Origin: Ascaris suum
Lineage: Eukaryota > Nematoda > Chromadorea > Rhabditida > Ascarididae
Assembly: GCA_013433145.1 (NCBI GenBank)
Contig: CM024191.1
Location: 574,501-638,500 of the forward strand
DNA: 64,000 bases
Direction of reading: 5' to 3'
The position numbers and the translations under genes were made by a program. Positions 48,801 to 54,624 of the stretch are shown here, in pieces. The notes beneath the pieces were generated by a model. It saw only the letters and a program-made list of their open reading frames with translations, had not been told where the DNA came from and ran no database searches. The first letter of the stretch is position 1; every line of letters begins with the position of its first letter.

Positions 48801-51800
48801 GTTGCGTCGTTTCGACTACAAACTTTACGTTTTTAATAGAGATGGAGAAGGGAGGAGGAGGTGGTTGGTGGTAGGTATTTTTGCGATGAGATTTACTCAA
48901 ATGATTTGACCTCCGGAAAAATCCGGACTCCGGAAGTGAGGATGAATTGAAGCCTTTTTTGCTTTTCTTTTTCGGAAGAAAAACTGTAGTGAAGATCATT
49001 TAAACGAGAAATCTTGCTTCTGGTTCAATTAACATAACTTGCTAAAGATCACCACTCTCCAGCGAAACATATTGTTTTTCACGCTGTCTATAGTGCGTCG
49101 CGTTTTACATAATTTGCTATTATTTAGCCATAGCGTAACACCACTTCATTTTTCGTAAATCTTGGTTTACCCGCAATGAAATATTGCCACGAGTTCAAAA
49201 AGGTGCTGGGTTAATAGCAGACATTATCAAGCTTCTGATAAATTTCCTCTGAACGTCTTCAGTGGCCTTCTGAAGGATCAGTTCAGTTTCGGTTGGATTT
49301 TTTTCTGCGACTAATGGATGCTTTAGGACTTTCTCACCGACAGATAAATCAAAACCAAGTTCACCTACTGATTTTACGCCCCATTGCTTTCTTTGTTGTC
49401 TGAAAACAAAGTTAAATAGTTTTTAAGATGTTTCTTAGGTATTTTCCGGTCATAACGTTACATCAGTGTGGGTCAGTGTTTCAGAATCAGCTGGTACACA
49501 ATTTCCAACAGTGGCCACTGTACTGGGACAGACCGATCGATTTTCAGGTGCATCAATCTACCGTCATTTGTTTCTTCGATTAGTTGGTGTATTTGCCCTT
49601 TGATGCATTTAATAATTGCTGAGTTAGCATTTACATGTTACTCGATATTGTATTGTACAATTCCAGCTGGTCATTCGTTGCACGATTACAGTTTGTCGCT
49701 CGCTTGCACCATTATATAGCTGGTCATTCGTTTGCATGATTTTGGCTGGTTACTCATGTTTTATTTCTGGCTCGTCAACGAGACTTGCAATGCTCGGTTT
49801 CTGAGGGCAGAAGATTCGTTTTCAAAGTGTGCATCGTTGCGCTTCTAAGCTTGCCGTATATTCGGTAACCTCACAATCTGATTGCTTCCCCCACAGTAGG
49901 AAACGAACTACTTCAAAGTGCACTGTTTCGCTTGGTAATTGAGGCTGATAATGTGAAATGATCAAATACTGAGCTTATTCCGATTATTGTTCCCGGTGGT
50001 GATGTGTTGCGATGTCTTAAATAGAAGTATAGATGGATCGATTTATTTGCTTTAGGAAGCTTGTGATATTTTGACGCATCAAATAAGCGTTGATCCATCC
50101 AAAATTTGCGATTCGGTGCCGCAAAATTATCGAGGAGAAGGAACGTTCATAATCGACCTGCGCGGCTTCGCCAATCGCCATGACGTTTCTTTGGACGGCT
50201 TGGGAATGTGGGGCAAGTTTTTCCTTTTTAATTTTTCATGTTTACTTGAACTTCTGTTCCTTACATGTTCATATCTGGGGACCGTCTGTCATCTGAATCA
50301 AACCGGCGTAGGAATTTCATTGCTTCTTTGTAGTTGTTCGCGCTACTTTAAAAGTGATAGATAAGGTTATAGAAATGAAACAGTAAGTGGACAGTAAATA
50401 TAAAAGAATGTTTGTTGACGAAAAAAGATAGAACGGCGTTCTCAAGCAGCCAGCTGAATTACGGGATTATGATATGATGTCCATGTGAAATGGCTAGACT
50501 GCTGTGTAGTGGCGAGGCTTGTTTTGCATTGGGCAATGAGGAATTTGATGTTGCGCGTTTTCAACTCTTGTTTTACCTCTCTTGAGTGATCACAAATATT
50601 TATGCATATAAGGGAGTGTTTTTATCTTATCAACGAATAGCATTTAGGAAGCACTAGAAAGCATAGTTGTCTGTGAAATTGAATGTCGCTTTATTCCTGT
50701 CGAGTGCGGTCACGGTTCTTAAGCAGAGTAACGTTTAACACCTACATTGTGCATTTTGCTGCCTGCCATATGCGCTTTGCCATATATCTAACCGTTTGCG
50801 CATTCAAACATTTTGAGTTTGTACTTACTTTTGTAGAACTTTGAATTCCACAAGGAAGCTGGTTATTATTGTCTTTTTTGAGATTTAGTTAGTCATTCTT
50901 GGGACATGTCCGTCTCTTCCCCAATATATCAACTTTGTGTTGTTGCTAAACTTATGCAGTTTCAGGTAAGCCTACCGGACGAACTCGTTTTTTCGGGTTA
51001 AATATCGCAGGGAAGCCGATACGAATCGACGATGGAAAAGGGAAGATCCCCTATGGAGCAGAATATGAATATAAGTGCATGGCAAAGAGATACGAACACC
51101 CCAGGACTGTGGGCCATGAGTCGAAATTTATAAAAAAGGTCTGGTTTGGTTTTTTTGCAGTTTGGAAGGGCAACAGGAGAGGGAGAGAATAAAAGTAATG
51201 GTTCTTTAGCACTTCAAACAACGCGGTAGACGACTTGTTTTGTTTAGTAATTCATTAAGTCACTGAGCTCGCGAAGTATTTAGCCATTGTGCAGAAACAT
51301 TTGCTCGAGTGCCACATAATTCACTAGTCAGAAATAGTCGCTCGTAACCTGAGCAGTCCTTGAAAGCTAATGATTTTTTAATTATAAAATGTTTTCAGCA
51401 CTATCCTTTTCGGCGGCTTGAGCAGTGGCAAATATTAAGTATGGTGGGCGTAGCACGTGCCTTAGGCGCAAAAGTAGTAGCTTTCTAAAACGCGGGAATC
51501 TAGGCGTAGCAAAGTGTTGGTTCAGAGCTCGTCACTGGAAGTGTTCCTCGTAGGTACGTCTCTCAGTTTGAGAGGAATGTGTATTCGTTCTTCGATTCAC
51601 GAGCACATCACGCGCGTCGTTCAAACATTTGGGCTTTGCCTTTATGTCGTGTCAAGAAAACACTGCAGTGAGGATTTTTGAACAGCTTTAGCAGTTTTTT
51701 GGATAGGGAAGGAGGAATTCCACCGTGTCTTCCGTGAGGTTCTTTTTTAAACATTTGGCAGTGACCGGACGGAGCAATAAGTTTTCATATATTGAATTAT

Positions 51801-54624: not shown

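Follow-up and report, generated by a model that had tools for sequence, protein, structure and literature searches.

A conserved nematode protein with a tandemly duplicated domain of possibly NAC-like fold

A gene on the + strand of a 64,000-nucleotide stretch of the Ascaris suum genome (contig CM024191.1, positions 574,501 to 638,500; hereafter the window, in whose coordinates all positions below are given) encodes a protein with two tandem copies of a conserved domain, for which the predicted fold suggests kinship with the NAC domain. We therefore propose, tentatively and at somewhat less than even confidence, that it is a conserved nematode tandem NAC-like protein, and would act as a gene regulator or chromatin factor; such a role can be put forward because the predicted fold resembles the NAC group.

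The two copies in the window are identical at 65 of 160 residues (41%; BLASTP E value (E) 3e-38), and a profile-profile comparison of copy 1 with copy 2 (29 and 30 sequences, respectively) gave a probability of 100 and an E of 4.7e-52. An initial annotation, made from the letters of the window, had placed such a duplication at 50060..54041. The six exons within 50056-54041 are indeed real, as they have consistent phases and join into a single open frame of 346 residues (by translation and splicing), but they form only the middle of an 18-exon gene spanning 42880-57263. Because both copies begin with PLYxxxxIDF in alignments, copy 1 (start at 49512) opens in the upstream exon at 49485-49547; copy 2 starts at 52427. 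The repeat, first estimated at about 145 residues, thus starts further upstream and measures approximately 154-160 residues, with copies of 154 (181-334) and 155 (381-535) residues in the Plectus sambesii relative P0001. The linker is approximately 46 residues (46 in P0001) rather than about 55, and contains a Trp (W355 of P0001) that is almost invariant.

The motifs picked out by the initial annotation are real and conserved. Across 32 aligned sequences, the invariant columns are R465, D479, K485, R486, Y487, E488, F496, R498, K499, I500, Y501, Y523, W525 and K526 (P0001 numbering), all of which belong to copy 2, with none contributed by copy 1. Strong conservation runs along the strands of the predicted model and through the linker. 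Together with the confident model described below, these residues bear out the suggestion of a folded domain under selection.

In the encoded protein, an N-terminal region bearing two short conserved motifs precedes the two domains; a variable tail and then a coiled-coil-like segment follow them, and many relatives have an acidic C-terminal end. Exons 1-15 were joined computationally, and the last three were placed from tblastn ends and flanking letters:

Exon 1, 42880..43117, + strand: N-terminal region, like the N-terminus of Parascaris P0021 by eye; ATG and splice sites
Exon 2, 44868..44935, + strand: the P0023 gene model begins here, at 44870
Exon 3, 45168..45323, + strand: from tblastn and splice sites
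Exon 4, 45846..45939, + strand: conserved motif TxxxLRGNP
Exon 5, 46782..46891, + strand: conserved motif PSMxxLFRLYxxSSL; helix 122-145 in the P0001 model
Exon 6, 47512..47649, + strand: acidic
Exon 7, 48583..48693, + strand: acidic
Exon 8, 49485..49547, + strand: start of copy 1 (WPLYWDRPIDFQ, W at 49512), upstream of the region first annotated
Exon 9, 50056..50212, + strand: copy 1; the 3' end is a GC donor
Exon 10, 50966..51138, + strand: copy 1, KRYEH
Exon 11, 51837..51951, + strand: end of copy 1, GEPFDF; copy 1 stops at about 51932
Exon 12, 52308..52509, + strand: linker, including the conserved GSRSWEAASF, followed by the first part of copy 2 (from CPLY at 52427)
Exon 13, 53464..53683, + strand: core of copy 2
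Exon 14, 53871..54041, + strand: copy 2, with KRYEH, RFVRKIYTG and GEPEDF; copy 2 stops at about 54029
Exon 15, 55136..55250, + strand: tail
Exon 16, 55747..55934, + strand: tail, then the opening of the conserved coiled-coil-like segment (RKEYENQ); its donor is probably the second GC one; from tblastn and flanking letters
Exon 17, 56603..56683, + strand: RFSALLDRVEAFLDRLER, with F/L/V/F/L at a spacing of 3-4; heptad read by eye
Exon 18, 57129..57263, + strand: includes the stop codon

Two database gene models, P0023 (Ascaris lumbricoides) and P0021 (Parascaris univalens), connect the six central exons and map piecewise onto the window by tblastn, at 85-100% per piece for P0023 (the lower values include intron letters) and 78-100% for P0021. 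Among the donors of the six exons, one is GC in place of GT. The P0023 model avoids both GC donors: at that of exon 9 it takes a different donor and so gains nine residues (KFFLFNFSC), and at the other it omits nine (VYRKEYENQ). P0021 shows neither change and reads WGKPTG without an insert. As the Parascaris model and the aligned relatives agree against P0023, introns 50213-50965 and 55935-56602 of this gene are both likely to be GC-AG. One intron contains a long (TA)n tract that gives way to (GA)n, at approximately 44564-44690. Elsewhere in the window, positions 9843-9923 on the - strand match the Rfam mir-44 microRNA precursor family at 61.4 bits, above the gathering score of 54 (E 4.8e-12).

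Searches of protein databases retrieved first 16 proteins and then, with a profile built from ten aligned sequences, 45 at E 0.1 or better (the best 7,996 candidates were scored). All 38 that bear an organism name are from nematodes, both free-living and parasitic, namely strongyles, ascaridoids, Gnathostoma, Auanema, Heterorhabditis, Pristionchus, Caenorhabditis (C. elegans among them) and Plectus; seven are unnamed. The proposed restriction to nematodes thus holds for every named match, and is a statement on the matches found, as the search requires shared five-residue words and its sensitivity is limited. The 45 include no protein from filariae, Strongyloides, Trichinella or Meloidogyne, groups in which the gene may have been lost or have diverged. 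The two-copy layout expected of orthologues is present in 27 of 32 aligned proteins, with both copies over 130 residues, and the other five (P0003, P0004, P0009, P0028 and P0045) are either short fragments or products of gene models from which part of a copy is missing. One Toxocara protein, P0044, carries a ubiquitin-conjugating enzyme domain (PF00179); it was taken as a fused gene model and left out of the analysis.

The C. elegans orthologue, P0041, shares the two copies, the coiled-coil-like segment and the acidic ends, but is only 35% identical to P0001. From the name of Haemonchus P0019 it is probably Y39B6A.43; the literature searched contained neither the term Y39B6A.43 nor DUF7747. 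Six members (P0025, P0006, P0003, P0008, P0040 and P0041) bear the mutually discordant database names SET, YDG, protein kinase, Clip, Ricin B lectin and DUF4124. None showed its named domain above cut-off in Pfam scans, and these look like unreliable automatic names.

The duplication itself appears to be old. In a tree of 63 domains (29 copy-1 and 30 copy-2 domains from 32 proteins, the two window domains and two from an Ascaris paralogue), a single branch parts all 31 copy-1 from all 32 copy-2 domains (support 100/98; 0 of 500 shuffles as low). As Plectus, ascaridoids and Caenorhabditis each hold one domain of each kind, the tree places the duplication before their split. Long branches, B-type copy-1 domains among them, were flagged and call for caution. 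Both P0001 domains group with those of ascaridoids, and P0001 is 73% identical to the window protein, whereas Plectus is expected outside the other nematodes in the tree; either slow evolution or a labelling problem may account for this closeness.

Exon searches with three queries showed that the Ascaris genome (277.8 Mb, 97 contigs) holds at least two such genes: the window gene on contig C10 and the paralogue on the - strand of contig C11, at approximately 6996400-7013811. The paralogue shares the two-copy layout and likewise carries a coiled-coil-like segment at its C-terminal side. Its closest row in the tree is Parascaris P0030, and it agrees by eye with Ascaris P0014. Its domains fall into a group made up of Parascaris, Anisakis and two unnamed sequences, from which strongyle and Caenorhabditis rows are absent; this suggests a gene duplication on the ascaridoid side. 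Both genes have an intron at V(Q/K)|(I/V)LxxRYE in copy 2, and the paralogue also has one at the same place in copy 1 (Ascaris and Parascaris gene models, by eye). This shared position fits an exon-level duplication.

The claim that the domain matches no family stood in part. No Pfam model scored above cut-off in the window protein or its copies, 10 + 10 relatives, all 32 aligned proteins or further sets, and sub-threshold matches other than DUF7747 were scattered, each in at most 3 of 32 members. DUF7747 (PF24927) matched weakly and in register in copy 1 of Pristionchus mayeri (18.1 bits, E 0.0025, profile 65-167 of 167; whole protein 14.4 bits, E 0.036) and of P. entomophagus (15.7 bits, E 0.013, profile 63-166). 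The other 8 of 10 domains tested, including a third Pristionchus, and the window's own copies gave no match, and no tested sequence reached the curated cut-off of 25 bits. A genome search with PF24927 gave a single weak place (E 0.475); its control was silent, and the search is no evidence on absence. We take DUF7747 to be a probable distant relative of the domain, short of membership. A search of PDB sequences with a 10-sequence profile gave nothing up to E 10, and NCBIfam nothing for four proteins. A match to XMAP215/TOG (E 0.031-0.28), spanning only 33 residues and far under cut-off, was rejected.

The fold was approached through a predicted model of P0001, which is confident and shows each domain as a single helix with a sheet of roughly five strands; prediction without an alignment was uninformative (mean predicted local distance difference test score 32). 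When this fold was used for a structural search, the top six rows were all of the NAC family, spanned copy 2 and ranked above unrelated rows; a viral structure library gave nothing at E 0.001 or better. PMC9252788 describes an alpha-beta5 topology for the CG-1, Gti1/Pac2 (WOPR) and Ssr4 N-terminal domains of the WRKY/GCM1 clan, in its NAM-like subgroup, and the helix and strand order of our model agrees with that topology (in order only, strand pairing aside). These two observations argue against a fold born within nematodes, with a superficial likeness to NAC and a role outside gene regulation, which we regard as rather unlikely.

Sequence comparison lends the NAC-like reading no support. Pfam NAM (PF02365) matched none of the 32 proteins; a true NAC protein scores 161.8 bits. 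Homology to NAC at the profile level reached only E 0.048-0.21, values equalled by 11-40 of 100 decoys (with a narrow NAC profile). For the proposed mechanism, a short run of basic residues in the tail counts as weak support: 21 of 32 proteins have it and 11 lack it, including the ascarid A-type genes and C. elegans, and for the window gene itself it therefore gives none.

The same fold evidence would also suit a protein of this group that lost DNA binding or never had it, and that acts within a nuclear complex as a scaffold for protein interactions, which may be the case for Ssr4. Holm 2022 (PMC9252788) reports that a strong signal of DNA binding is absent for Ssr4 and At3g16750, and the modest net charge of the domains and the conservation along strands and linker point the same way. 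The invariant basic residues K485, R486, R498, K499 and K526 speak against such a scaffold, and the present data indicate no partner; we consider it improbable but not negligible. A divergent SRA (YDG) domain reading modified cytosine is far less plausible and would surprise us greatly. Its appeal lies in the UniRef name of P0006 ('YDG domain-containing protein') and in VRVDRG..YD, which by eye is locally like SRA VRVIRG..YDG. SRA/YDG (PF02182) had no profile, Pfam (32 proteins) or structural support and is disfavoured; a genome-wide PF02182 search, whose control was also silent, provides no evidence of absence.

On the NAC-like reading, an ancestral domain of one helix and about five strands would have duplicated in tandem before the lineages of Plectus, ascaridoids and Caenorhabditis parted. 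Within the WRKY-GCM1 superfamily, the relatives of this domain are probably the NAC, CG-1, WOPR and Ssr4 group, from which it has diverged. The protein would be nuclear and bind DNA or chromatin, two such chains may pair through the C-terminal coiled coil, and the acidic N-terminus may recruit partners. Should this be correct, free-living Plectus, C. elegans and several parasites would share a nematode gene regulator built on a tandem NAC-type domain. A bolder version, which we think unlikely but worth stating, is that these proteins form an undescribed nematode DNA-binding family whose tandem NAC/CG-1/WOPR-type domain is an animal branch of a plant and fungal regulator fold, with DUF7747 as a second branch. 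Regardless of the NAC reading, the family merits a model of its own, as a duplicated domain of approximately 155 residues, invariant at some positions, was missed by the Pfam models searched.

Among known systems, CG-1, WOPR and Ssr4 differ from NAC in that none is among the structural matches listed. WOPR nevertheless bears a resemblance by eye, in G[TS]xFVxD ... RR-DGxxxW ... SR ... Y. Gti1/Pac2 (WOPR, PF09729) had no Pfam match in the 32 proteins, and hhalign against a WOPR profile of only 2-3 sequences stayed at decoy level. WOPR also holds a large insert, which the nematode domain lacks. Its DxxxW motif holds the recognition loop, according to PMC9252788. In many strongyle and Caenorhabditis proteins, copy 2 has DDNGxW at a place that thereby includes DxxxW (by eye; the WOPR register is unproven), whereas the ascarid and Plectus copies have DGNGxW or DGLGxW and are longer there by one residue. 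The NAC domain, which pairs a helix with a twisted sheet, is the nearest structural match among those listed; PMC4081100 describes it as plant-specific. The nematode protein differs from it in layout, and its two domains would most likely lie side by side and grip DNA through the open face of the sheet, forming a covalent counterpart of the NAC dimer. NAC proteins carry one domain each and bind DNA as dimers.
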